A DNA stretch of 36,945 nucleotides from Comamonadaceae bacterium. Lineage in GTDB: Bacteria; Pseudomonadota; Gammaproteobacteria; Burkholderiales; Burkholderiaceae_C. The notes beneath the pieces were generated by a model. That model worked only from the letters and a program-made list of their open reading frames with translations. It was not told where the DNA came from and ran no database searches. The DNA lies in the NCBI GenBank assembly GCA_025352965.1, contig JANXRP010000109.1, forward strand, positions 1 to 36,945, given 5' to 3'. Shown here piece after piece: positions 14,647 through 35,587 of this stretch (its first letter is position 1; each line of letters opens with the position of its first letter). Made by a program: the position numbers and the translations under genes.

Positions 14647-15384
14647 TTAGACCCCAAGATGTTGAGCCAGCAGTTCTGGCTGCCCAAGCAGGCTAGCCGT
14701 AGCCCCATCAAACACAACCTGTCCTTTGACGAGGATGACGTTCCTATCGGTAATTTGCGTCACGTGTTTCCAATTTTTATCAACAATCACACTGCTGATG
14801 CCTGTCTCGCGTATGATGCCGCAGATGCGCCAAATTTCCTTGGCAATCAGCGGCGCCAGTCCTTCGGTGGCCTCATCCAAAATCAGCACGTCGGGGTTGG
14901 TCATGAGTGCACGACCAATCGTGAGCATTTGCTGCTCGCCGCCAGATAACTGTTGCCCGCCGTGGGTGAGACGTTCCTTCAAACGCGGGAATGTGTCAAG
15001 CACTTTGTCGAAATTCCAATCTTGCCCTGCCTTTGCGCGCGCTTTAGCGGCTTCTGATTTACCCGCGCGAGCTGCCATCACAAGGTTCTCTGTCACGCTC
15101 AAATTACCAAAGATGCCACGTCCTTCGGGCACATAAGCAATGCCCAGTTGTGCGATTTTGTAGGGTGCGGCATTGACCATGTCTTTGCCAATGACCTCTA
15201 CTTTGCCCGTCACGCGTCCTGCTGGCGCTTTGATGAGTCCCATGATGGACTTAAGCAGCGTGCTCTTGCCCATGCCATTTCTGCCCATCAGGCCAATCGT
15301 TTCGCCGCGTGCCACGTGGAAGTTCACGCCTTGCAAAATGTGACTTGCACCGTAGTACGTGTTTAGGTTTTGAACATTAATCAT
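14647..15384 (-). CDS. livF: Liv-type ABC transporter ATP-binding protein LivF (transporter 1)
   Basis: One of two ATPases of a branched-chain-amino-acid-type (HAAT) importer. The 245-residue product has Walker [11 protein letters not shown] (about 37-46), the signature [15 protein letters not shown], Walker [14 protein letters not shown] and a downstream switch region. The ATG giving [12 protein letters not shown] was chosen; it overlaps the livG stop by 8 bp, typical of this operon type, while longer in-frame readings run into livG. LivF and LivG form the nucleotide-binding pair. The true ligand need not be an amino acid: Liv-type systems also import aromatic acids in related bacteria, and this one lies beside aromatic catabolic genes. 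Confidence 0.9.
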
Positions 15385-16090
15385 GCTCTTCTCCGAGGTA
15401 GGCCGCTTGAACGCTTGCGTCCGCGCGAATCGCCGCTGGTGTGCCTGTTGCGATAACGCGCCCATCCACCATCACAGTTAGCACATCCGCAAGGGCGAAG
15501 ATTGCATCCATGTCGTGTTCAACCAAAAGAATCGCGTGACTGGCTTTAAGACCTTGCAAGAGCTCAATCATGCGTTGGGCCTCTTGTGTACCCATGCCCG
15601 CCAGTGGCTCGTCCAGCAATAGGACTCGCGGGTTTCCTGCTAAGCACATGGCGATCTCTAGCTGACGCTGCTCGCCGTGGCTCATGTTTGATGCGACGGT
15701 GTGCGTGTGCTGCACAAGCTTTGCAAGCTCAATGGCTTGCTTGGTTTGCGCCAAGTTGAAGTGCGATGCCAAAAGAACATTTTCAAAAACCGAGAGGGGT
15801 AAAAACACATTCGTCTTTTGGAAGCTGCGTCCAAGTCCCCCTCGAGAGATGCGCTCCATCGACCAGCCCGTGATGTCCACGTTGTCTAGGTGGATATTGC
15901 CAGACGTGAGTGGCAGATCGCCCGACAGTAAATGGGTGAGTGTGGATTTGCCTGCGCCGTTGGGGCCAATCACAGCGTGGATTTGCCCGCGTACCAGATC
16001 AATCGAAACATCGTTCACCGCCGCCAAGCCGCCAAAGCGTTTGGTCATATTTTTGGCTCGTAGCAAGACGTGCTGGGGCATATTAGCCAT
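15377..16090 (-). CDS. livG: Liv-type ABC transporter ATP-binding protein LivG (transporter 1)
   Basis: Second ATPase of transporter 1, 237 residues. Walker A is GPNGAGKSTL (about 40-49), the region FQKTNVFLPLSVFENVLLA is the LivG Q-loop segment, the signature is MSHGEQRQLEIAMCL rather than LSGGQ, and Walker B is VLLLDEPLAGMG. The LivG hallmark end (AAYLGEEHD) is present. It overlaps livM upstream and livF downstream by 8 bp each, so translation is coupled. Confidence 0.9.
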   Translation of the reverse strand: MANMPQHVLLRAKNMTKRFGGLAAVNDVSIDLVRGQIHAVIGPNGAGKSTLTHLLSGDLPLTSGNIHLDNVDITGWSMERISRGGLGRSFQKTNVFLPLSVFENVLLASHFNLAQTKQAIELAKLVQHTHTVASNMSHGEQRQLEIAMCLAGNPRVLLLDEPLAGMGTQEAQRMIELLQGLKASHAILLVEHDMDAIFALADVLTVMVDGRVIATGTPAAIRADASVQAAYLGEEHD

Positions 16091-17075
16091 GCTTTTTCTC
16101 CCACAGTCCCATCAAACCACGTGGCGCAAAGATGACGATGAGGACGATAAAAGTACCCATCCATAGTTGCCAATGTTTGCCCAAACTATTAGGTAAATCT
16201 TTGAAGAGCGAGAGCAAGATCTCAAAACTAAACGCGCCCACAATCGCGCCCGCAAAGTTACCCATACCACCTAAAACCAACATCATGATGGCGTGGGCAC
16301 TCATGTGAAAGCCCATCAGCTCGGGGTTGACAAAGCCGCTTTGCGCGCCGTACAAATACCCTGCCAAACCCGCTAATCCGCCTGCAATCGTGAACGCAGT
16401 CAATTTGTATTTGAATGTGCCGTAGCCCATAGCACGCATACGGTGCTCATTGAGACGAATGCCCGCTAAGGCACGCCCCGTGGGGCTCCAAAGCAGTTTT
16501 CGTAGGATGACGTAGACAAATAGCATCATCACCAGCGTGAAATAGTAAAAATGATTCTTGTTGTCTAAATCAAATGTCTGAACGCCAAAAATAGCGGTGC
16601 TGGGCTTGAAGTTGATGTACAGCCCGTCCGAGCCACCTAGCACTTTGTTGTCAAAAAATAAGAAGTACACCATTTGTGCAAACGCCATCGTCACCATGAT
16701 GAAGTAGATGCCGTGCGTGCGCACCACAAAAAATCCAATGATGAGTGCCGCTAAGCTAGAGGCGAGCACCGCAAGTGGAAGCGTCCACCAAAGACTGACC
16801 GCCGCGCCTTCGGGCGTGAGGAAGGCGAGGGCATAACCCGCGAGGCCAAAGTAGGCTGCGTGGCCTAGCGAGACCAGTCCCGTCACGCCTTGCAGCAAAT
16901 CGAGGCTCATGGCAAAGATGGCGAGGATCATCATCCGCGTGACCATTTCTTTGTAAAAATCAGACCCCAAAGAATCGGAGATAAAGGGGAAGGCGACAAG
17001 GCAGAGCAAAGCCACGACCAGTGTGGCTTGCAGCCCTTTAGGTAAGATTTCTAAATTGGCTTTTAATGTGCTCAT
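16083..17075 (-). CDS. livM: Liv-type ABC transporter permease LivM (transporter 1)
   Basis: A 330-residue inner-membrane protein with about eight to ten hydrophobic segments. It shows the LivM hallmarks MSLDLLQGVTGLVSLGHAAYFGLAGYA, a conserved RLNEHRMRAMGY cytoplasmic loop that couples to the ATPase, and GGMGNFAGAIVGAF near the C-terminus. It pairs with LivH to form the translocation path. It starts 7 bp after the livH stop and overlaps livG by 8 bp. Confidence 0.9.
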   Translation of the reverse strand: MSTLKANLEILPKGLQATLVVALLCLVAFPFISDSLGSDFYKEMVTRMMILAIFAMSLDLLQGVTGLVSLGHAAYFGLAGYALAFLTPEGAAVSLWWTLPLAVLASSLAALIIGFFVVRTHGIYFIMVTMAFAQMVYFLFFDNKVLGGSDGLYINFKPSTAIFGVQTFDLDNKNHFYYFTLVMMLFVYVILRKLLWSPTGRALAGIRLNEHRMRAMGYGTFKYKLTAFTIAGGLAGLAGYLYGAQSGFVNPELMGFHMSAHAIMMLVLGGMGNFAGAIVGAFSFEILLSLFKDLPNSLGKHWQLWMGTFIVLIVIFAPRGLMGLWEKKHG

Positions 17076-17082
17076 ACGGCAT

Positions 17083-17946
17083 TCATGCTTTGAATAATCC
17101 CTCAGGCTTCCACAGCAAAACGGCAGCCATCAAGATATACACCAGCATCCCCGAAATGGACGGTAGCAGTACCTTACCAAAGGTGTCCACAAAACCCACC
17201 AAGAGCGCAGCAATCAGCGCGCCGCGTACCGAGCCAATGCCACCAATCACCACCACCACAAAGCACATGATGAGCACACTCGATCCCATGCCTGGATAGA
17301 CGCTGCTAACGGGCGCGGCAATCATGCCTGCGACTGATGCCAGAGCGACGCCTAGCGCAAACACCACGGCGTGAATCAGTTTGATGTTGATGCCGAGCGC
17401 TTCGGCCATTGGGCTATTGAATGCACCAGCGCGAATCTTCATGCCTAGTTTGGTTTTGCTAATCAGCCAATACAGCCCCAAAGCCAATGCCACACAAACG
17501 CCTGACATCGCCAAGCGATAGACAGGATACGAGAGGGTGTCGGTCAGCGGAATTGAACTTGATAGCAGTTCGGGAATCGCCACGCCGTGCACATCGTCAC
17601 CCCATAGCATGGAGCGTAGCTCTTCAAAAATGTAAATCAACCCAAAGGTTAAAAGCACCTGATCGAGATGATCGCGCTCGTAGAAGTGACGAAACAAGAG
17701 CCACTCCAGCGCCAAACCAAACACCACCGAGAGCAGCGTGCCAACTAGGATGGCTAAGGTGAGGCTACCCAAAAGCCCGCTTAGTGCATACGCAAGGTAA
17801 GCCCCCAGCATATAAAAGCTGCCATGTGCCAAATTGACCACGCCCATGATGCCAAAAATCAGCGTCAAACCCGCTGCCAGCATGAAGAGGAGTAAGCCGT
17901 ATTGAACGCTATTGAGTAGCTGAATAAAAAAAGTTGCTAAGTCCAC
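17083..17946 (-). CDS. livH: Liv-type ABC transporter permease LivH (transporter 1)
   Basis: A 287-residue inner-membrane permease with about eight hydrophobic segments and the LivH signature GLTLIFGIMGVVNLAHGSFYMLGAYLA near the N-terminus, split here as two motifs: GLTLIFGIMGVVNLAHG and SFYMLGAYLA; the loop RAGAFNSPMAEALGIN and the segment VIGGIGSVRGALIAALLVG are also typical. The start is GTG (Val-Asp-Leu-Ala-Thr); no in-frame ATG upstream gives a sensible N-terminus. It follows the nearer binding protein gene by 12 bp. Confidence 0.88.
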   Translation of the reverse strand: MDLATFFIQLLNSVQYGLLLFMLAAGLTLIFGIMGVVNLAHGSFYMLGAYLAYALSGLLGSLTLAILVGTLLSVVFGLALEWLLFRHFYERDHLDQVLLTFGLIYIFEELRSMLWGDDVHGVAIPELLSSSIPLTDTLSYPVYRLAMSGVCVALALGLYWLISKTKLGMKIRAGAFNSPMAEALGINIKLIHAVVFALGVALASVAGMIAAPVSSVYPGMGSSVLIMCFVVVVIGGIGSVRGALIAALLVGFVDTFGKVLLPSISGMLVYILMAAVLLWKPEGLFKA

Positions 17947-17958
17947 TGGAGCACATTT

Positions 17959-19158
17959 TTATACTGCGGCCATCTTGCAGCCCGTGCCAGGATCAGCAAG
18001 CCCTTTAATAGCAAGACTTAGCACTTTGTTTTCACCGTTTTTAACAACGCGCAGGTAGATGTCTTGTACGACGTTGTGCGAAGGGCTCATCTTCCATTTT
18101 CCGCGTGGGCTATCAATGACGGCGACTTCCATTGCTTTGTAGAGCATCGCTTTTTTGCTGAAATCACCGCCCACAGCGGCTGCGCCTTTTGCCAGCAAAT
18201 ATGCCGTGTCATAGCCTTGCACCGCGTACACATCGGGTTGCATTTTGAACTGTAAGGCATAGGCAAGGCGGAAAGCTTTATTCTTAGGTGTATCCAGCGA
18301 ATCGCTGTAATGCATCGTGGTCACAACGCCCTCAGCGGCTGCACCTGCTGCTTCTAGCGTGCCTTCGGTCAACGTGCCTGCGCCGTAGAGTGGAATCTTA
18401 TTTTTGAGTCCCGATGCGGCGTAGTCTTTCATAAACTTAGCAGCACCTGCACCTGCAAAAAAGCAAGCGACGGCGTCGGGTTTGAGGGCAGCAATTTCGG
18501 TCAGCAGCGCTTGAAACTCAACGCTAGGGAAAGGTGCCCACAGCTCCTTGGTAATCACGCCGCCTTTTGGTACAAAGCCCTCGCGAAAGCCCTCTAACAT
18601 CTCTTCGCCAGCGGTGTATTTCCAAGAAATCCAAACGACTTTCTTTAAGCCCTTAGCTAGCAAGGCCGAGCCCAGTGCGTAGGTTTGCTGGTAGCTGGTG
18701 TAGGAGGTGCGAAATACATTGGGCGCGCATAACGAGCGCGTCGCTGCATGCAAGGCGGCTGTCGGGATGATCGAGAGCGTACCGCTTTCGCGCACTACTT
18801 TTTGAATGCCCAATTGCACACCTGAATGCACTGAGCCTACAAGCACATCGACCTTGTCGCGCTGCACAAGCTTGCCCGCATTTTCAATGGCTTTGGACGG
18901 ATCGGACTCGTCATCCACTTTAAAGAACTCAACTTCGCGCCCGCCAATTTTTCCGCCAAGTTCTTTCAAACCAAGGTAGAAGCCGTTTTCAATCGCTACG
19001 CCTAATTGCGCAAACGTGCCTGTATAGGGCAACATAAACCCTACGCGAAGCTTTGTTGTTGGGGTTTGCGCCTTCGCACTGAGAGGTGCAAAGCTGCTTG
19101 TCGCTGCTCCTACTAATGCAAAACTAGATGATAAAAGTTGACGGCGAGTGGTATTCAT
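17959..19158 (-). CDS. Liv-type ABC transporter substrate-binding protein (transporter 1, copy A)
   Basis: A 399-residue periplasmic binding protein (Peripla_BP_6 type). The N-terminus MNTTRRQLLSSSFALVGAA has a twin Arg followed by a hydrophobic stretch and AKAQ, so export by Tat or Sec is plausible. The mature part opens with KLRVGFMLPYTGTFAQLGVA, the family's first-strand motif, and includes VDVLVGSVHSGVQLGI and DVYAVQGYDTAYLL. It is a clear paralogue of the gene immediately upstream; both end in a conserved GTGCK segment, which may form a structural disulphide. It sits between its paralogue and livH, so both binding proteins probably feed one permease. The ligand is unknown; aromatic acids or dicarboxylates are guesses from context. 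Confidence 0.88.
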   Translation of the reverse strand: MNTTRRQLLSSSFALVGAATSSFAPLSAKAQTPTTKLRVGFMLPYTGTFAQLGVAIENGFYLGLKELGGKIGGREVEFFKVDDESDPSKAIENAGKLVQRDKVDVLVGSVHSGVQLGIQKVVRESGTLSIIPTAALHAATRSLCAPNVFRTSYTSYQQTYALGSALLAKGLKKVVWISWKYTAGEEMLEGFREGFVPKGGVITKELWAPFPSVEFQALLTEIAALKPDAVACFFAGAGAAKFMKDYAASGLKNKIPLYGAGTLTEGTLEAAGAAAEGVVTTMHYSDSLDTPKNKAFRLAYALQFKMQPDVYAVQGYDTAYLLAKGAAAVGGDFSKKAMLYKAMEVAVIDSPRGKWKMSPSHNVVQDIYLRVVKNGENKVLSLAIKGLADPGTGCKMAAV

Positions 19159-26831: not shown

Positions 26832-28004
26832 ATGAAAAAACGTCTATTTCTATCTACAGTTGTAACGGCTGTCACGCTAGCTTCCGCTGGTGTTAGCTTT
26901 GCGCAAGACAACACGTTCAAAGTGGGACTCATCCTCCCGATGACAGGACCATTTGCCTCCACGGGCAAGCAAATTGATGCAGCGGTCAAACTCTATCTCG
27001 CACAAAATGGCGACACCGCTGGGGGCAAAAAAATCCAAGTGATTTTGAAGGACGATGCCAGTACGCCCGATACCACTAAGCGTCTTGCGCAAGAGCTGAT
27101 CGTGAATGACAAGGTCAACGTGCTCGCGGGTTTTGGTTTGACACCACTCGCGTTTGCAACCGCGCCGCTGGCCACGCAATCTAAAACCCCCATGGTGGTG
27201 ATGGCAGCGGCCACATCCAGCATTACGCAGGCCTCGCCTTACGTGGTGCGCACCAGTTTTGCGCTACCGCAAGCGGCAGTGGCGATTGCTGACTGGGCCC
27301 CCAAAAATGGCATCAAAAAAGTCGTGACTTTGGTCAGTGATTTTGGTCCTGGCATTGATGCAGAGAAATTCTTTAAAGACCGCTTTACCTTTAATGGTGG
27401 CGTGGTGTTAGACACTTTACGCGTCCCTGTTCGCAACCCCGATTTCGCGCCATTTTTGCAAAAAGTACGTGATCTCAAACCCGATGCCGTTTATGTGTTT
27501 GTACCGTCTGGCGCAGGCGCTGCGGTGGTTAAGCAGTATGTTGAGCGCGGCATGGACAAAGCAGGCATCAAGTTGATTGGCACGGGCGACGTGACCGATG
27601 ACGACATTTTGGTGGGCATGGGCGACAGCACACTTGGCATGGTGACATCGCATCACTATTCGGCGGCGCACAAATCGGCAGTGAATCAAAAGTTTGTTGC
27701 TGCGTTTGAAAAAGCCAATGGCGGTTTGCGTCCTAACTTTATGGCCGTGGGTGGTTACGATGGTATGCGTGTGATTGTGGAAGCGCTTAAAGCCACCAAA
27801 GGTAAAGGCACAGGGGACGATTTACTGGCCGCCATGAAAGGTCAAATTTTTGAAAGCCCACGCGGCCCTATGTTTATTGACGCGCAAACCCGCGACGTGG
27901 TACATAACATCTACATCCGCAAGGTTGAGAAGCAAAACGGACAACTCTATAACGTCGAATTTGACACGATCAAAGACGTGAAAGATCCAGGCAAAGCCAA
28001 GTAA
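26832..28004 (+). CDS. Liv-type ABC transporter substrate-binding protein (transporter 2)
   Basis: A 390-residue periplasmic binding protein with a classic Sec signal peptide (KKRLFLSTVVTAVTLASAGVSFAQ is split as KKRLFLSTVVTAVTLASAG then VSFAQ, cleavage near residue 25) and the family opening FKVGLILPMTGPFASTGKQ. Further hallmarks are VNVLAGFGLTPLAFATAPLA and DAVYVFVPSGAGAAVVKQ, and a C-terminal ESPRGPMFIDAQTRDVVHNIYIR. A GGAG ribosome site precedes the ATG. It is clearly different from the tandem pair of transporter 1. Because it follows vanARB and leads a complete transporter, an aromatic acid such as vanillate or 4-hydroxybenzoate is a reasonable but unproved ligand. Confidence 0.9.
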   Translation: MKKRLFLSTVVTAVTLASAGVSFAQDNTFKVGLILPMTGPFASTGKQIDAAVKLYLAQNGDTAGGKKIQVILKDDASTPDTTKRLAQELIVNDKVNVLAGFGLTPLAFATAPLATQSKTPMVVMAAATSSITQASPYVVRTSFALPQAAVAIADWAPKNGIKKVVTLVSDFGPGIDAEKFFKDRFTFNGGVVLDTLRVPVRNPDFAPFLQKVRDLKPDAVYVFVPSGAGAAVVKQYVERGMDKAGIKLIGTGDVTDDDILVGMGDSTLGMVTSHHYSAAHKSAVNQKFVAAFEKANGGLRPNFMAVGGYDGMRVIVEALKATKGKGTGDDLLAAMKGQIFESPRGPMFIDAQTRDVVHNIYIRKVEKQNGQLYNVEFDTIKDVKDPGKAK

Positions 28005-28017
28005 AGAGTGAGCTGAC

Positions 28018-28890
28018 ATGTTGACCATCCTGTTTGATGGCGTCGCCTATGGGATGCTGCTATTTATCCTTGCCGTAGGCCTTGCCGTGACGATGGGGTT
28101 GATGAACTTCATCAACCTCGCTCACGGTGCGTTTGCGATGGTGGGTGGCTACATCACGGTGCTGCTCATGCAAAAAATGGGCGTGCCGTTTCTGTGGTGC
28201 TTGCCCCTCTCGTTCTTGGGTGCAGCCATACTGGGCGCGGCTTTGGAGGTCACGCTTTATCGCAGGTTATATGGCAAACCGCATCTCGATCAAGTGCTGT
28301 TTTCGATTGGCCTTGTTTTTATGGCGGTGGCCGCAACGGATTACTTCATTGGTTCGACTTTGCAGATCATGCAGCTACCCGAGTTCCTCAAAGGTCGCAC
28401 CGAGCTTTGGATGGACACACCGTTTGCACTGGGTATGGGGCACTACCGTTTGTTCATCATTGCCGTGTGTGCCGCATTGACCGTGGCTTTGCAACTAGTG
28501 CTCTCTAAAACCCGCTTTGGTAGTCGTCTCAGAGCCGCTGTCGATGACCAGCGCGTAGCGGCAGGATTGGGCATCAATGTCAATATTGTGTTTCTCACCA
28601 CGTTTGCTGTGGGTTCAGGGCTGGCGGGGCTTGGCGGGGCGCTGGGTGCCGAAGTGCTAGGGCTCGACCCCACTTTCCCACTCAAGTTCATGGTGTACTT
28701 TTTAATTGTCGTGGCGGTAGGCGGCACGACTACGATCACGGGACCGCTCTTGGCGGCGCTCTTGCTCGGCATTGCCGATGTGGCAGGTAAATACTACATC
28801 CCCAAGATGGGCGCTTTTACGGTGTATTGCTTAATGATTGCGATTTTGATTTGGCGTCCACAAGGATTGTTCTCTCGGGGTAGCAAATGA
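28018..28890 (+). CDS. livH: Liv-type ABC transporter permease LivH (transporter 2)
   Basis: A 290-residue membrane protein with about eight hydrophobic segments and the LivH block GLMNFINLAHGAFAMVGGYI near the N-terminus, the coupling loop RAAVDDQRVAAGLGIN, and a late VAVGGTTTITGPLLAALLLG. It begins 13 bp after the binding-protein gene, and its stop overlaps the livM start (ATGA), so the operon is translationally coupled. Confidence 0.9.
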   Translation: MLTILFDGVAYGMLLFILAVGLAVTMGLMNFINLAHGAFAMVGGYITVLLMQKMGVPFLWCLPLSFLGAAILGAALEVTLYRRLYGKPHLDQVLFSIGLVFMAVAATDYFIGSTLQIMQLPEFLKGRTELWMDTPFALGMGHYRLFIIAVCAALTVALQLVLSKTRFGSRLRAAVDDQRVAAGLGINVNIVFLTTFAVGSGLAGLGGALGAEVLGLDPTFPLKFMVYFLIVVAVGGTTTITGPLLAALLLGIADVAGKYYIPKMGAFTVYCLMIAILIWRPQGLFSRGSK

Positions 28891-29864
28891 CAACTCAGAG
28901 TAGCCCCATCCTACGCTCGCTGCAAAGCGATAGTCGCATCAAAAAATGGGAACCACTGGCGTGGTTGCTCGCATTTGCCGCGCCACTATTGATGCCCAGT
29001 CATTCACTTTTGGTCAGCGAAATCGCTATCACGGCGTTGTTTGCCATGTCGCTCGATTTAATTCTGGGCTATACGGGTATTGTCTCGCTGGGGCATGCCG
29101 CTTTTTTTGGCATGGGTGCGTATAGCGCGGCGCTGTTTGCCAAGCTGGTGATGCCCGAACCGTTGATTGGTTTGTTAGTGGCTACTTTGCTTGCGACCAT
29201 ACTGGGTGCGGCTTGCAGCGTGACGGTGTTGCGTGGCTCAGACCTCACGCGGCTCATGGTGACGCTAGGCGTGGGGCTTATTTTGCTGGAGCTCGCCAAT
29301 AAGCTCGATTGGCTCACAGGCGGTGCAGACGGCTTGCAAGGCGTGGTGATGGGACCTGTGTTGGGGTTATTTGAGTTCGATTTGAACGGAAAAACAGCCG
29401 CGTGGTATTCACTTAGCATCGCACTCTTGCTCTTCATTTTGATGCGTCGCTGGATACATTCGCCGTTTGGCGCTGGCCTTAAAGCTGTGCGCGATAACCG
29501 CCTGCGAGCCGCCAGTATTGGCATCCACGTGAGCCGCCGCATCGCCATCATCTATACGCTGGCGGCAGGCGTTGCAGGTGCAGCAGGCGGACTGATGGCG
29601 CAAACAACAGGCTTTGCATCGCTCGATGTTTTTGCCTTCGATCGCTCTGCCGACTTGATGCTGATGTTGGTTATTGGCGGCACGGGTTGGCTCTGGGGTG
29701 GCATTACGGGCGCGGTGGTTTTCAAGCTGCTTCACACCGTGATTTCTAACCTCACGCCGCAATACTGGACGTTTTGGATTGGACTCTTTTTGGTGGTGCT
29801 CGTGCTGGTAGGACGTGAGCGATTGATGCAGCCTAAGACGTGGTTTCGCAGGAGCGCAGCATGA
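28887..29864 (+). CDS. livM: Liv-type ABC transporter permease LivM (transporter 2)
   Basis: A 325-residue membrane permease with the LivM signature MSLDLILGYTGIVSLGHAAF near residues 53-72, the coupling loop KAVRDNRLRAASIGIHVSR, and a C-terminal GGTGWLWGGITGAVVF. About nine hydrophobic segments. It overlaps livH and livG by 4 bp at either end. Confidence 0.9.
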   Translation: MTTQSSPILRSLQSDSRIKKWEPLAWLLAFAAPLLMPSHSLLVSEIAITALFAMSLDLILGYTGIVSLGHAAFFGMGAYSAALFAKLVMPEPLIGLLVATLLATILGAACSVTVLRGSDLTRLMVTLGVGLILLELANKLDWLTGGADGLQGVVMGPVLGLFEFDLNGKTAAWYSLSIALLLFILMRRWIHSPFGAGLKAVRDNRLRAASIGIHVSRRIAIIYTLAAGVAGAAGGLMAQTTGFASLDVFAFDRSADLMLMLVIGGTGWLWGGITGAVVFKLLHTVISNLTPQYWTFWIGLFLVVLVLVGRERLMQPKTWFRRSAA

Positions 29865-30637
29865 GTGACGTCGTTCTCAGTTGCGCGGGTCTCATCAAAC
29901 GCTTTGGCGGCATTACGGCCACGGATAACGTGACGTTTGATTTGAAGCAAGGCGCACGTCATGCGCTGATTGGCCCGAATGGTGCGGGCAAGACAACGCT
30001 CATCAATTTATTGACGGGCGTGCTAGAGCCCACCGCTGGGCGAATCGAATTGCTGGGCGAGGACATTAGTGCTTTGAGTCAACACGAGCGCGTGCGGCGC
30101 GGCATGGTGCGCACGTTTCAAATTAACCAATTATTTGATACGCTCACGCCGCTGCAAACGCTGGCGATGGTGGTATCTGAAACGCAAGGCTTAGGCGGCA
30201 AGTGGTTGCAAGCATTAGGTGCTGGGCAGCCATCTGTAACTGAGCGCTGTGCCGAGCTACTTGAGCAATTTCATCTCACTGAAGTGATGAACCAGCCGAC
30301 CAAAGTGTTGGCTTATGGCAAGCGCCGTTTGCTAGAGATTGCGATTGCGCTGGCTTGCAATCCCAAAGTTTTGCTGCTTGATGAACCCGTAGCGGGCGTG
30401 CCTGCGGGCGAGCGCGAAGAGCTGTTGCAAACCGTGGCCGCGTTGCCAGCCGATGTATCTATTCTTTTGATTGAGCATGACATGGATTTGGTGTTTGAGT
30501 TCGCCACGCGCATTACCGTGCTGGTCAACGGTGCGGTGCTGACTGAAGGCGCACCAGAGGCGATTGCGAACGATTCGCAAGTTAAAGCCGTGTACCTTGG
30601 GCACTCGCTGGATGCCACGTCAGGGAGAAACTCATGA
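29861..30637 (+). CDS. livG: Liv-type ABC transporter ATP-binding protein LivG (transporter 2)
   Basis: A 258-residue ATPase. Walker A GPNGAGKTTL lies near residue 40, the Q-loop segment is RTFQINQLFDTLTPLQT, the signature is LAYGKRRLLEIAIAL, and Walker B is VLLLDEPVAGVP with catalytic Glu. The ATG giving MSDVVLSCAGLIKRFGG was chosen over an upstream GTG because it overlaps the livM stop as ATGA and has a GGAG ribosome site. Its stop overlaps livF in the same way. Confidence 0.92.
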   Translation: MSDVVLSCAGLIKRFGGITATDNVTFDLKQGARHALIGPNGAGKTTLINLLTGVLEPTAGRIELLGEDISALSQHERVRRGMVRTFQINQLFDTLTPLQTLAMVVSETQGLGGKWLQALGAGQPSVTERCAELLEQFHLTEVMNQPTKVLAYGKRRLLEIAIALACNPKVLLLDEPVAGVPAGEREELLQTVAALPADVSILLIEHDMDLVFEFATRITVLVNGAVLTEGAPEAIANDSQVKAVYLGHSLDATSGRNS

Positions 30638-31338
30638 CAGCACTACTCACGTTAGAAAACGTCAGTGCAGGTTACGGCGAAGCGGTCGTTTTGACCAATA
30701 TCTCGTTGTCCATTCAAGCGGGCGAAACTTTGGCGCTCCTTGGCCGCAACGGTACAGGCAAGACCACACTCATCAACACGCTGGCGGGTGCGACGCGTCA
30801 GCATGGCGGCACGATCACCTTAGACGGTCTATCTCTGCAAAAATTAAAAGCTCACGAGCGTGCGGCTGCTGGCATTGGATGGGTACCGCAAGAGCGCAAC
30901 ATTTTTAAATCGCTAAACGTGGATGAAAACCTGACTGCAGTGGCGAGAGCAGGGCGCTGGACACCCCAGCGTGTGTACGAGATGTTCCCACGCCTTGCCG
31001 AGCGCAAATCCAATATGGGCACGCAGCTATCGGGCGGCGAGCAGCAAATGTTGGCGGTTGGGCGTGCACTCGTGCTCAATCCCAAACTATTGCTCTTGGA
31101 CGAGCCGCTAGAGGGTCTTGCGCCCATCATCGTAGAAGAGTTGCTCGCCGCTATCGCCCGCATCACAAGGGATGAAGGCATGAGCGCCATCATTGTCGAG
31201 CAACATCCGCAGGCGATTTTGAAAATTTCGCACACTGCGATGGTGCTCGATCACGGCACAGTCGTGCATGCTAGCCGTGCGGATGAGTTGCTGAGTCAAC
31301 CCGATCTGTTGGATAAACTTTTGGGCGTTGCGCGGTAA
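30634..31338 (+). CDS. livF: Liv-type ABC transporter ATP-binding protein LivF (transporter 2)
   Basis: A 234-residue ATPase with Walker A GRNGTGKTTL, the LivF segment GIGWVPQERNIFKSLNVDENL, signature [15 protein letters not shown] and Walker B LLLLDEPLEGLAP. It completes the five-gene transporter-2 operon and is followed after 16 bp by an acyl-CoA dehydrogenase gene on the same strand. Confidence 0.92.
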   Translation: MTALLTLENVSAGYGEAVVLTNISLSIQAGETLALLGRNGTGKTTLINTLAGATRQHGGTITLDGLSLQKLKAHERAAAGIGWVPQERNIFKSLNVDENLTAVARAGRWTPQRVYEMFPRLAERKSNMGTQLSGGEQQMLAVGRALVLNPKLLLLDEPLEGLAPIIVEELLAAIARITRDEGMSAIIVEQHPQAILKISHTAMVLDHGTVVHASRADELLSQPDLLDKLLGVAR

Positions 31339-31354: not shown

Positions 31355-32515
31355 ATGGATTTTTCTCTCAGTAGCGATCAAAAAATGATGATTGAAACGG
31401 TGCGCCGTTTCATCGATGAGGAGTTGCAGCCACTCGAATCAAAAGTTGAAGATGCAGGTGAGTTAGACCTTGAAGCCGCCAAGGCTATACACAGCAAAGC
31501 CATATCCCTTGGGCTTTACGCGATGAATATGCCCGAAAACCTAGGTGGCGCGGGGCTTTCCAACTTTGACCGTATTTTGTGCGAAGAGCAATTTGGTCGT
31601 ACATCCGACATTTTGATTCGTCGTGCTTTTGGCAATGTCTACGAGCCGCTTTTGCATTGCAAGGGCGAACAAATAGAGCGTTGGCTCAAACCCACCGTTG
31701 CTGGCACTCGTACCTGCTCGATTGCGATTACCGAGCCTGGCGCAGGATCTGACGCAGCGGGCATTAAAACGCGTGCTGAAAAAAATGGCAAAGGATGGAT
31801 CCTGAACGGCAGCAAGCACTTTATTAGCGATGGTTTGTGGAGCGATTTCTTCCTTGTCTCGGCTAAAACAGGCGAGAAAGATATTTCCATGTTCATGGTC
31901 GACAAAGGGCTCGCAGGATTTACCGTTGGCAAAGATCAAAAGATGATGGGACTCAGAGGTACGCCGCACATCGAACTCTTTTTTGATAATGTGCAATTAG
32001 AGGACGCAGCACTTTTGGGCGAAGCGGGGCAGGGCTTTAAGCTCGCCATGGGTGCGCTGAACGTGGTGCGCCTCGCGCAAGTGGGCGCTCGTGCTGTGGG
32101 CAAGAGCAGCCATGTGCTGGAGATGATGATTGATTACGCCAATCAGCGCCAGCAGTTCAATACCAAGATTGGCGACTTTCAAATGGTGCAACAACAGATT
32201 GCCGATAGCGTGATCGAGGTCAACGCCGCACGCTGGATGGCCTATCACGCCGCGTGGATGTTAGACCAAGGTTTAGACGCACGCGAGCAAATCGCGATGG
32301 TCAAAGTCTATGCAGCTGAGACGCTTGGGCGCGTGGTGGACCGCGCCGTACAAATCTTTGGCGGCATGGGTTTTTGCAAAGAGCTCTCCATCGAGCGCTA
32401 CTACCGTGATGCGCGTATTTACCGCATCTTTGACGGCACCAGCGAAATCCACCGCGGCGTGATCGCCAAATCGACACTTAAAAAAGGCGCGGTTTTGTTT
32501 GATGTGAACCGATAA
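31355..32515 (+). CDS. acyl-CoA dehydrogenase family protein with Asp at the usual catalytic Glu position
   Basis: A 386-residue flavoprotein of the acyl-CoA dehydrogenase fold: N-terminal helices (MDFSLSSDQKMMIETVRRF), middle beta domain with the FAD/substrate motif ITEPGAGSDAAGIKT and the second motif LNGSKHFISDG, and a C-terminal helical domain with RQQFNTKIGDFQ and VQIFGGMGF. In most relatives the base is Glu in YEGT; here the aligned residue is Asp360 in IFDGTSEIH. The alternative base position used by isovaleryl-type enzymes is not an obvious Glu either (VVRLAQVGARAVG). The ATG was chosen for its AGGAAA ribosome site and family N-terminus. It directly follows transporter 2, so it probably acts on the CoA ester of the imported acid. 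Substrate unknown. Confidence 0.9.
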   Translation: MDFSLSSDQKMMIETVRRFIDEELQPLESKVEDAGELDLEAAKAIHSKAISLGLYAMNMPENLGGAGLSNFDRILCEEQFGRTSDILIRRAFGNVYEPLLHCKGEQIERWLKPTVAGTRTCSIAITEPGAGSDAAGIKTRAEKNGKGWILNGSKHFISDGLWSDFFLVSAKTGEKDISMFMVDKGLAGFTVGKDQKMMGLRGTPHIELFFDNVQLEDAALLGEAGQGFKLAMGALNVVRLAQVGARAVGKSSHVLEMMIDYANQRQQFNTKIGDFQMVQQQIADSVIEVNAARWMAYHAAWMLDQGLDAREQIAMVKVYAAETLGRVVDRAVQIFGGMGFCKELSIERYYRDARIYRIFDGTSEIHRGVIAKSTLKKGAVLFDVNR

Positions 32516-32523
32516 TCGGGTGC

Positions 32524-33780
32524 ATGACCACTTCTTATCTTTTCACTTTGTGTTTCGCAGCTGCCCTGTTAGCTGGTTTTTTGCTCCGATCCTATTTATC
32601 AATGCGGCAAGCGCGCTCGGTGCAGCACAATCGCGACGCTGTTCCTAAAGCCTTTGCCGATAAAGTCTCGCAGGCTAATCACGAAAAAGCAGCAGACTAC
32701 ACATTGGCTAAATTGCGATTGGGCTTTTGGGAAGATGTGCTGGGCTGCATTGTGCTGTTGGGTTGGACACTTTTGGGTGGACTGGCGCTTTTAAATGCTT
32801 CGGTGCTCGAATGGCTGGGTTCAAGCTTTTGGCAGCAAATCGTGTTGATGCTGGCTTTTGTGGTGATTGGCTCCGTCATCGATTTGCCGCTGTCGCTTTA
32901 TCAAACGTTTGGTTTAGAAGCACGTTTTGGTTTTAACAAAACCACATGGAAAACATGGGCGGTTGATTTGGTAAAAGGCGTGGTGTTGGGTGCCGCTATC
33001 GGTCTGCCTTTGCTTGCTTTGGTGCTCTATTTGATGAGCGCAGCGGGCAGTGCGTGGTGGTTTTGGGCTTGGGTGGCATTGTCTTTGTTCAGCTTACTCA
33101 TGATGTGGATTGCTCCCACGGTTTTGATGCCGTTGTTTAATAAATTTACACCTTTAGAAGATGAAGCTTTAAAGGCGCGAGTAACGGCACTGATGCAGCG
33201 CTGCGGCTTTAACGCCAGTGGATTCTTTGTGATGGATGGCAGCAAACGCTCGGCGCATTCCAATGCTTTTTTTGTCGGCTTCGGTTCTACTAAACGCGTG
33301 GTGTTTTACGACACGCTACTCGCACAAATCAACCATGACGAGATGGAAGCGGTGCTGGCACACGAACTCGGTCATGCACACCACAAGCACATCATCAAAC
33401 GCATGGTGATGCAGTTTGTGGTCTCGTTTGTAGGCTTTGCGCTGTTGGGTTGGTTGGCCACGCAAACGTGGTTTTATACGGGTCTGGGTGTGCAGCCGTC
33501 CTTAACAGGCAGTAACGATGCACTGGCACTTTTACTCTTCATGATTGCCGTGCCCGTGTTTATGTTTTTTGTAACACCCCTGTTTTCATGGGGTTCGCGC
33601 AAGGACGAGTTTCAAGCGGACGCGTATGCCGTCAAAAACAGCAGCGGTGTAGCGTTAGCTTCGGCGTTATTGACGCTGTATGAGGACAACGCATCGACGC
33701 TGACGCCCGACCCGCTTTACATGAGCTTTTACGCTTCGCATCCACCTGCGACTGAGCGCTTGGCAAGGTTGACGGTTTGA
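32524..33780 (+). CDS. M48-family zinc membrane endopeptidase (Ste24/CAAX protease-like)
   Basis: A 418-residue inner-membrane protease. The zinc site is HELGH at residues 280-284 with third ligand Glu362 in DEFQADAYA, the M48 arrangement. Membrane segments lie near 5-22, 70-92, 105-125, 150-172, 178-200 and two more after the zinc motif, together with LPLSLYQTFGLEARFGFNK (about 121-139), which is diagnostic for the Ste24-like subgroup rather than HtpX. Bacterial members are thought to act in membrane protein quality control; substrates are not known. The gene follows the acyl-CoA dehydrogenase by 8 bp and overlaps rsgA by 4 bp, so M48-rsgA is a coupled pair. Confidence 0.93.
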   Translation: MTTSYLFTLCFAAALLAGFLLRSYLSMRQARSVQHNRDAVPKAFADKVSQANHEKAADYTLAKLRLGFWEDVLGCIVLLGWTLLGGLALLNASVLEWLGSSFWQQIVLMLAFVVIGSVIDLPLSLYQTFGLEARFGFNKTTWKTWAVDLVKGVVLGAAIGLPLLALVLYLMSAAGSAWWFWAWVALSLFSLLMMWIAPTVLMPLFNKFTPLEDEALKARVTALMQRCGFNASGFFVMDGSKRSAHSNAFFVGFGSTKRVVFYDTLLAQINHDEMEAVLAHELGHAHHKHIIKRMVMQFVVSFVGFALLGWLATQTWFYTGLGVQPSLTGSNDALALLLFMIAVPVFMFFVTPLFSWGSRKDEFQADAYAVKNSSGVALASALLTLYEDNASTLTPDPLYMSFYASHPPATERLARLTV

Positions 33781-34712
33781 ACGCTGGTTTGGTTGTTGGC
33801 TTACACGGCCATCACGTGGTTGTTGAAACGCCAACAGGCGAGCGCGTGATCTGTCACGCTCGCGGCAAAAAAAGCCAATGCGTGGTGGGCGACCGCGTGA
33901 AGTGGCAAGCCAGCAAAGACGAAGGCACGATTGAAAAATTAGAGCCACGTCGCAACTTGCTTTACCGCCAAGACGACATCCGCAGCAAACAATTTGCTGC
34001 TAATTTGGATCAAGTGCTGTTTGTGCTTGCCGCTGAACCCGTGTTTTCCGAGAGCCAACTCGCGCGTGCCTTGATCTCGTGCGAAGCCGCCAAAATCAAA
34101 CCCATTATTGTTCTCAATAAAGCCGATTTGACTGTCCCATTTAACGAGGCAATGGAGCGCCTCGCGCCTTACAAACGCATGGGCTACGAGGTGCTAGGAC
34201 TGTCCATAAAGCCTAAAACCGCACGGCTGGAGACCATGCCCGATATGGCTCGCGAGGCACTCATGCAGTTATTGGCAGGCAAAACCACCTTCGTCATGGG
34301 CGCATCGGGCGTGGGTAAAAGCTCGCTGATTAACCTCTTGCTGCCCGAGGCGGATTTGGCAACTCGCGAGATTTCTACAGCGCTTAATTCGGGCAAACAC
34401 ACAACGACGACGACGAGCTGGTTTTGGCTAAAAGAGGGCGAGGTTGGGAGCAAACAAAGCGCCATCATCGATTCGCCAGGCTTTCAAGAGTTTGGTTTGC
34501 ACCATGTGGACAAAATGTTGCTGGCTAAACTGATGCCCGACTTTGCGCAGTACGATGGCGAGTGCCGTTTTTATAATTGCACGCATTTGCACGAGCCACA
34601 GTGCGCTGTACTAGCGAACGTGTCGGAAGAAGAAGTTGATACCGCCATCAGTCCTTCGCGCCATGCGTTTTATGCAAGAGTGTTCGAAGAGCTTAGTCAA
34701 TCTAAATTTTAA
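33777..34712 (+). CDS. rsgA: ribosome small subunit-dependent GTPase RsgA
   Basis: RsgA is a circularly permuted GTPase that aids late maturation of the 30S subunit. The 311-residue product has an N-terminal OB-fold (about 1-75), then G4 VLNKADL, G1 GASGVGKSSLINLL and G3 DSPGF in permuted order, and a C-terminal zinc knuckle ECRFYNCTHLHEPQCAV. The start is TTG, overlapping the M48 stop as TTGA; an in-frame stop lies seven codons upstream and no ATG or GTG lies between, so TTG is the only reasonable start. The short N-terminal extension relative to relatives is a result. Confidence 0.96.
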   Translation: MNAGLVVGLHGHHVVVETPTGERVICHARGKKSQCVVGDRVKWQASKDEGTIEKLEPRRNLLYRQDDIRSKQFAANLDQVLFVLAAEPVFSESQLARALISCEAAKIKPIIVLNKADLTVPFNEAMERLAPYKRMGYEVLGLSIKPKTARLETMPDMAREALMQLLAGKTTFVMGASGVGKSSLINLLLPEADLATREISTALNSGKHTTTTTSWFWLKEGEVGSKQSAIIDSPGFQEFGLHHVDKMLLAKLMPDFAQYDGECRFYNCTHLHEPQCAVLANVSEEEVDTAISPSRHAFYARVFEELSQSKF

Positions 34713-35143: not shown

Positions 35144-35587
35144 ATGAATCGCAACGACATTACAGAAAAAATTATCACTGCCAAGGTGTCTAAGGGCATT
35201 ACTTGGGCATCAGTCGCTAAAAAAGTGGGTGAATCGAAAGAGTGGGTGACAGCGGCTTGTCTTGGGCAGATGACTTTGAGCGTAGCGCAGGCCAAGATCG
35301 TAGGCAAGATTTTTGGGCTAACTGCAGAAGAGCAAAAATGGTTGCAAGTCGTGCCCTACAAGGGCAGTCTGCCCACACCTGTTCCTACCGATCCACTTAT
35401 CTATCGCTGGTACGAAATCGTGAGTGTTTATGGCACGACGATTAAGGAATTGATTCACGAAGAGTTTGGAGACGGCATCATGAGTGCGATTGATTTTTCA
35501 ATGGACATCGTGCGCGAGCCTGATCCCAAAGGTGATCGCGTCAACGTGGTGCTCTCAGGTAAATTTTTGCCGTACAAAACCTATTGA
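35144..35587 (+). CDS. cynS: cyanate hydratase (cyanase)
   Basis: Cyanase converts cyanate and bicarbonate to ammonia and carbon dioxide (via carbamate), detoxifying cyanate and supplying nitrogen. The 147-residue product has the helical N-terminal domain and the C-terminal catalytic domain; Arg88 and Glu91 in YRWYEIV and Ser114 in GIMSAIDFSM line up with the catalytic Arg96, Glu99 and Ser122 of the E. coli enzyme with a constant offset of eight. An AAGGAG ribosome site precedes the ATG. No carbonic anhydrase, cyanate transporter or cynR-like gene is nearby. Its stop overlaps the dinB stop on the other strand by 7 bp in total. Confidence 0.96.
   Translation: MNRNDITEKIITAKVSKGITWASVAKKVGESKEWVTAACLGQMTLSVAQAKIVGKIFGLTAEEQKWLQVVPYKGSLPTPVPTDPLIYRWYEIVSVYGTTIKELIHEEFGDGIMSAIDFSMDIVREPDPKGDRVNVVLSGKFLPYKTY

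Follow-up and report, generated by a model that had tools for sequence, protein, structure and literature searches.

The acyl-CoA dehydrogenase (ACAD) family gene at positions 31355–32515 (+) of the window, as we call the whole 36,945-nucleotide stretch of Comamonadaceae DNA analysed here, is predicted to encode a (hydroxy)cyclohexane-1-carboxyl-CoA dehydrogenase that uses an aspartate where most ACADs use a glutamate. Translation, Pfam domains, an AlphaFold2 model, Foldseek searches and a tree underlie the assignment. The substrate is probably a hydroxylated cyclohexane-1-carboxyl-CoA of hydroaromatic catabolism, a class suggested by Phe359 and by the genes that surround the orthologues.

The reading frame starts with ATG, is open throughout and translates to 386 amino acids, which include DARIYRIFDGTSEIHRG and the C-terminal motif RIFDGTSEIHR. 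All three Pfam domains of the ACAD family, N-terminal (PF02771), middle (PF02770) and C-terminal (PF00441), score over their gathering cut-offs, at 56.0, 93.8 and 159.5 bits against 22.9, 33.3 and 22.4, respectively. The AlphaFold2 model, built with 30 sequences, has a mean pLDDT of 90.2 and a pTM of 0.89. Foldseek places this model nearest to MmgC, CarC and SCAD/short-chain ACADs, with TMq values of ~0.9 that rise to 0.91 for SCAD/MCAD chains; model and search together give the protein the ACAD fold. The best explanation of these sequence-derived results is that the gene would encode a working acyl-CoA dehydrogenase of ordinary fold.

Residue 360 is encoded by GAC at 32432–32434 (+). In three HMMER alignments, Asp360 falls on the JK-loop Glu (IYEGTS or IYEGTN) of 6fah (CarC), 5lnx (MmgC) and 5ol2 (butyryl-CoA dehydrogenase of C. 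difficile). The initial annotation had pointed out this replacement of the catalytic Glu, the YEGT kept by the gcdH product of the same window (L006 row) and the absence of an evident Glu at the isovaleryl-type base site, and all three observations were borne out. The last site lies on helix G, in a column that we take to be the base position of isovaleryl-CoA dehydrogenase. By residue comparison, this isovaleryl/long-chain-type column holds the non-acidic Val238 (codon 32066–32068 (+)) in 37 of 37 orthologues and thus no Glu. The account of Glu254 and helix G in PMC11153573 agrees with this placement. Candidate bases were sought at two known sites, the JK loop and helix G. Because the helix-G column is Val238, Asp360 is the one candidate among them; judged from the alignment, this acidic residue very probably acts as the catalytic base. 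A concealed second Glu at the isovaleryl-type site was rejected on account of Val238. A sequencing or assembly error, or a lone oddity, was rejected as well, since Asp is kept in all 37 orthologues of at least 60.5% identity; the residue is therefore real.

The spread of the aspartate was followed through these 37 orthologues (window included), seven next relatives (52–56% identity), 74 members of a sister clade (40–48%; 73 rows and L107, which the tree placed there) and 28 further ACADs, the last being similarity-picked or own-genome rows plus CaiA rather than a random sample, with L107 and the repeats L007, L009 and L011 left out. Asp occupies column 360 in every orthologue, in all seven next relatives and in 71 of the 74 sister-clade members. 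Among the 28 further ACADs, the column holds Glu in 22, Gly in three, and Pro, Phe and Asp in one each. The single Asp belongs to a second ACAD of the window's own genome (L003, G000:C124) with the motif ADGPDEVH, 28% identical to the window protein and presumably ACAD10/11-like. A tree of 91 rows, with the sister clade represented by 19 of its 74, united the 37 orthologues in one clade (100/99), joined by the seven next relatives (95/97) and then by the sister clade (90/91); several further ACADs formed long branches of unsure placement. Three sister-clade members (L112, L113 and L114) carry Glu in an otherwise similar motif (IWEGTSEIQRH). This natural Asp/Glu difference inside one clade would be useful for kinetic comparison with the Asp members.

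The sister clade comes from carnitine-type loci, mostly alphaproteobacterial. An acetate–CoA-ligase-family gene was found in 73 of its 74 loci, a CaiD-like gene in 66, carnitine 3-dehydrogenase in 41 and BKACE in 40, the queries for carnitine-type genes having been taken from L041, itself a locus of this clade. Because of these genes, its substrate is likely to be the linear gamma-butyrobetainyl-CoA. As Asp is near-universal in this clade too, where the surrounding genes serve the breakdown of the linear acid carnitine, Asp alone is no sign of a cyclic substrate, and most simply it is older than the substrate split between the orthologues and the carnitine clade. Further, PMC11153573 describes Asp at the position of the MCAD Glu in ACAD10, ACAD11, ACAD12 and Mtb 4HR3, which belong to a different part of the family. 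The initial annotation had taken Asp as the mark of an unusual substrate, a view that it would have given up for a tree position where Asp is routine and the substrate known. Asp is indeed routine in this branch, in the carnitine clade and in the enzymes just named, so the residue loses that meaning; a characterised member of the window protein's subfamily, which would supply a known substrate, was not found. The Glu-to-Asp swap is a clade trait across groups with differing gene neighbours and is thus unfit as the sole predictor of an unusual substrate.

A carnitine role for the window gene itself was rejected, as carnitine dehydrogenase and the acetate–CoA-ligase-family gene occur in none of the 36 orthologue loci, where CaiD and BKACE matched once each (L172 and L154, respectively). 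The predicted gamma-butyrobetainyl-CoA dehydrogenases, although the closest large sister clade (about 41–47% identity) and alike in Asp, differ from the window protein in Trp359, in the lack of a helix-G insertion and in their carnitine-dehydrogenase, CaiD and CoA-ligase neighbours. The model NF002885 for CaiA, crotonobetainyl-CoA dehydrogenase, gave 189.4 of the required 540 bits. E. coli CaiA (L186 5245–6387 (-)) has, unlike the window protein, Gly at column 360 and Glu at column 238, and therefore looks like an enzyme with an isovaleryl-type base. Six of the seven 52–56% relatives (L038, L039, L051, L174, L175 and L178) sit in another conserved cluster with a CaiB-type CoA transferase, two MaoC-like genes and dihydrodipicolinate-synthase-like genes, to which some of these loci add a dihydropyrimidinase gene; all six combine Tyr359 with Asp360.

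The residue before the base is more telling. Phe359 (codon 32429–32431 (+)) is present in 35 of the 37 orthologues, with Tyr in L131 and L147. The next relatives have Tyr in six of seven cases and Phe in L177, and the carnitine clade has Trp in 73 of 73 rows. According to the discussion of a single paper, the ThnO study (PMC11659651), ACADs whose substrates are alpha-substituted, cyclohexane-1-carbonyl-CoA being one of these, have Phe, Leu or Val here in place of the usually conserved Tyr. A second feature of the subfamily is a one-residue insertion in helix G, Gln242 (codon 32078–32080 (+); RLAQVG versus RIT-VA). It is common to the orthologues and the 52–56% group and missing from the carnitine clade, and helix 227–264 of the model runs through it without a break.

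The window protein falls outside the named models for cyclohexanecarboxyl-CoA dehydrogenases, with scores far under the curated cut-offs (232.1 of 650 bits for NF043006, CyhCrbnylCoADH; 162.9 of 575.35 for TIGR03207). As far as is known, the characterised cyclohexane-1-carbonyl-CoA dehydrogenases use Glu. Enzymes of this type (NF043006, TIGR03207, PDB 7xp7) share with the window protein the ACAD fold, a ring alpha carbon as the predicted proton site and, according to PMC11659651, a Phe/Leu/Val-type residue before the base; the window protein differs by the quinate/shikimate-type neighbours of its orthologues. Similarly, ThnO/ThnP of anaerobic naphthalene degradation pair an ACAD and a CoA transferase on a cyclohexane-ring carboxyl-CoA. 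ThnO, however, as described in PMC11659651, has Glu363 and Gly362 and acts on the side chain of 2-carboxycyclohexylacetyl-CoA, whereas the window protein has Asp360 and Phe359.

The neighbourhoods were drawn from the flanks of 36 orthologue loci, window included and four of them shorter than 7 kb, with a custom gene caller and clustering, so that gene ends are approximate; families were named by scanning one or a few members per cluster in a part of the clusters. Among immediate neighbours in the same orientation, the downstream one encodes a 3-oxoacid-type CoA transferase in 16 of the 36 loci and the upstream one a xylose-isomerase-like TIM barrel in 13. Anywhere near the gene, CoA transferases of the 3-oxoacid type occur in 17 loci and those of family III in seven. 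Other recurring neighbours are IclR regulators, KstD/ChcC2-related FAD dehydrogenases, NIPSNAP, shikimate-dehydrogenase-like proteins, type II 3-dehydroquinate dehydratase (DHQase II), a whole or split QuiC-like 3-dehydroshikimate dehydratase, GFO/IDH/MocA proteins and family III CoA transferases. These names denote families rather than proven functions, because the QuiC and ChcC2 models stay below their curated cut-offs (691 of 1200 bits and 415 of 900); the unnamed FAD model PRK12843 is passed by a neighbour (885 versus 758 bits).

Hydroaromatic markers of the shikimate/quinate type were called where at least one of six matched at E <= 1e-20 over half the query. They were picked post hoc, after inspection of the orthologue loci, and were found in 23 of 36 orthologue loci, in none of the seven next relatives and in none of the 74 sister-clade loci, a mostly alphaproteobacterial control that is not taxon-matched. 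With the five loci that supplied the queries removed (L125, L155, L160, L165 and L171), 18 of 31 remain, and 18 of the 23 positive loci have a marker at 40% identity or more. The 13 orthologue loci that lack a marker include short contigs (L123, L159 and L176 under 5 kb, L154 with 12 kb), and nine of at least 13.5 kb: L037, L044, L045, L048, L163, L166–L168 and the window. In G091, the ACAD gene belongs to one contiguous cluster that includes an HPPD-like/QuiC-N pair, MaoC, a family III CoA transferase, a ketopantoate-reductase-like gene and a small gene with no Pfam match. The same cluster also holds a DctP gene, GFO/IDH/MocA, DHQase II and two genes whose size and order suggest TRAP permeases. 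A cyclic acyl-CoA is the likely substrate class, given Phe359 and the hydroaromatic neighbours in many relatives. The initial annotation had proposed a cyclic or aromatic-derived acyl-CoA; the cyclic part gains support from the residue and the neighbours, and nothing was found in favour of aromatic or phenylpropanoid CoA esters.

A tight orthologue is carried by 28 of 399 genomes of the family, or by 34 at E <= 1e-120 when the 52–56% group is included, and by two of five genomes in the window's genus. Of the 28 genomes that carry the ACAD gene, 25 also have the shikimate-dehydrogenase-like gene termed c5, as do 102 of the 371 that lack the ACAD gene (Fisher 8e-11, with shared descent ignored). 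The window itself holds no marker and the partner genes sit on other contigs, which makes the link in this genome one of shared presence on separate contigs. Relatives of all the G091 cluster genes, at 54–84% identity to one or another locus, are found there on contigs C5 and C23. C23 carries the HPPD-like/QuiC-N pair, and C5 the rest of the partner set together with a c5 gene; the contig end of C5 cuts the family III CoA transferase gene. Two partners frequent in relatives, the KstD-like FAD enzyme and the 3-oxoacid CoA transferase, gave just short weak matches and no full-length one in this genome, which is given as 96.7% complete. The C5 locus (L191, G000:C5:6000-14846) brings together DctP, probable TRAP permeases, GFO/IDH/MocA, DHQase II, ketopantoate-reductase-like, shikimate-dehydrogenase-like and MaoC genes and the family III CoA transferase, and is a probable quinate-type catabolic cluster. 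It also contains a small gene of unassigned family, whose relative in L171 has no Pfam match.

In ACADs, a base takes the alpha proton, FAD N5 accepts a hydride from the beta carbon, and ETF carries the electrons away. From the conserved Asp and Phe, the single clade, the neighbourhoods and the partner set in the genome, we infer the substrate, the direction and the order of steps as follows. A free ring acid would be activated by a CoA transferase, for which the window's genome offers the family III gene. The resulting (poly)hydroxylated, alpha-substituted cyclohexane-1-carboxyl-CoA would be desaturated to a cyclohex-1-ene-1-carboxyl-CoA, with Asp360 taking the alpha proton in place of the JK-loop Glu, the beta-carbon hydride going to FAD N5 and the electrons to ETF. 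Shikimate-dehydrogenase-like and dehydratase enzymes may then handle the product toward protocatechuate-type aromatics. Dihydroshikimoyl-CoA to shikimoyl-CoA is the simplest guess for the specific reaction, and taken by itself an unlikely one.

The initial annotation had tied the substrate to the transporter next door or to vanillate/phenylpropanoid-derived CoA esters, with Asp as an adaptation. The position is as it described: a solute-binding protein and livH, livM, livG and livF, assigned by similarity and domains, precede the ACAD gene at 26832–31338 (+), 16 bases separate the livF stop from its ATG, and vanA/vanB-type genes lie upstream beside the Liv set. Across the 399 genomes, the binding protein (129 genomes) is somewhat commoner with the ACAD gene (15 of 28) than without it (114 of 371; p 0.02). 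However, 14 further genomes, some of them short-contig drafts, have both genes, and among the matches listed the binding protein lies on a different contig from the ACAD gene in 12 and 75 kb or more from it in G021 and G188. G001, of the same genus and without the ACAD gene, has livG, livF, M48 and rsgA consecutively; in the window the M48 peptidase gene and rsgA follow the ACAD gene at 32524–34712 (+). Adjacency to the transporter therefore says little about the substrate, and the sharing of Asp with the sister clade also speaks against an adaptation. We regard this explanation as very improbable; the adjacency stands as a fact of position while its functional weight falls away, and the vanillate genes count as weak evidence on context. 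The binding protein adjoining livH is closest to 4ey3/4eyg/4eyk (533 bits), which we take to be aromatic-acid binding proteins of R. palustris. Such ligands fit the adjacent vanA/vanB-type genes, to which the complete Liv set probably belongs as an importer of aromatic acids. As the importer of the ACAD substrate it was rejected, given its aromatic-acid-like binding protein, the separate or distant binding-protein matches listed for other genomes and the livF of G001 that runs into M48. At the same site upstream of M48, G003 has a NIPSNAP match and a TIM-barrel gene before its ACAD gene, and G004 has a different window-related gene; the G002 stretch is short. The place of the ACAD gene between livF and M48 suggests an insertion (or a loss in G001), or else a gene retained from a larger block. 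Elsewhere in the window, a probable second Liv-type transporter set, named by similarity to Liv genes, lies at 14647–19158 (-), with related sets near the ACAD gene in L045 and L156, and a cyanase gene (cynS, 35144–35587) converges on a DNA polymerase IV gene and overlaps its end.

The contrast with G003, where the window has livF directly upstream, would also suit a stranded remnant that has lost most of its carrier block and has little or no role, as would the two partners that lack a full-length match in the genome. Yet the frame is intact, its product is 88% identical across 386 residues to that of G003 and keeps the conserved residues, and C5 carries the set with the family III CoA transferase gene, all of which makes a remnant improbable. 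Rather less easily dismissed, though still unlikely, is a substrate from a later stage of the same catabolism, such as one formed once the ring has been cleaved: a linear or short branched acyl-CoA, with the ring-acid neighbours a reflection of one regulon and no more. MaoC and the family III CoA transferase in the G091-type cluster and in the C5 set would suit such a substrate, as would MmgC, CarC and SCAD as the nearest structures and the carnitine-type, linear-substrate loci of the sister clade. Phe359 points the other way, as do the commonest direct partners, a CoA transferase (16/36) and a TIM barrel (13/36), and the neighbour clusters that were scanned included none named as a thiolase.

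An Asp-based dehydrogenase for hydroxylated cyclohexane-1-carboxyl-CoA thus remains the preferred reading. Beyond it, we tentatively suggest a CoA-dependent hydroaromatic branch in a range of proteobacteria. Saturated relatives of quinate and shikimate, such as dihydroshikimate, would receive CoA from a CoA transferase, and the Asp-based dehydrogenase would oxidize them to a CoA ester of shikimoyl type. With the CoA handed on to a further substrate molecule, the freed acid would enter the known route through shikimate dehydrogenase and dehydroshikimate dehydratase to protocatechuate. Among the matches listed in a literature search, which covered titles and the starts of abstracts with subscription literature mostly outside its scope, there was no report of such a dehydrogenase. 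The window gene represents a patchily spread ACAD subfamily with a testable substrate class, and hints that the breakdown of hydroaromatic acids from plants may include a CoA-dependent step.
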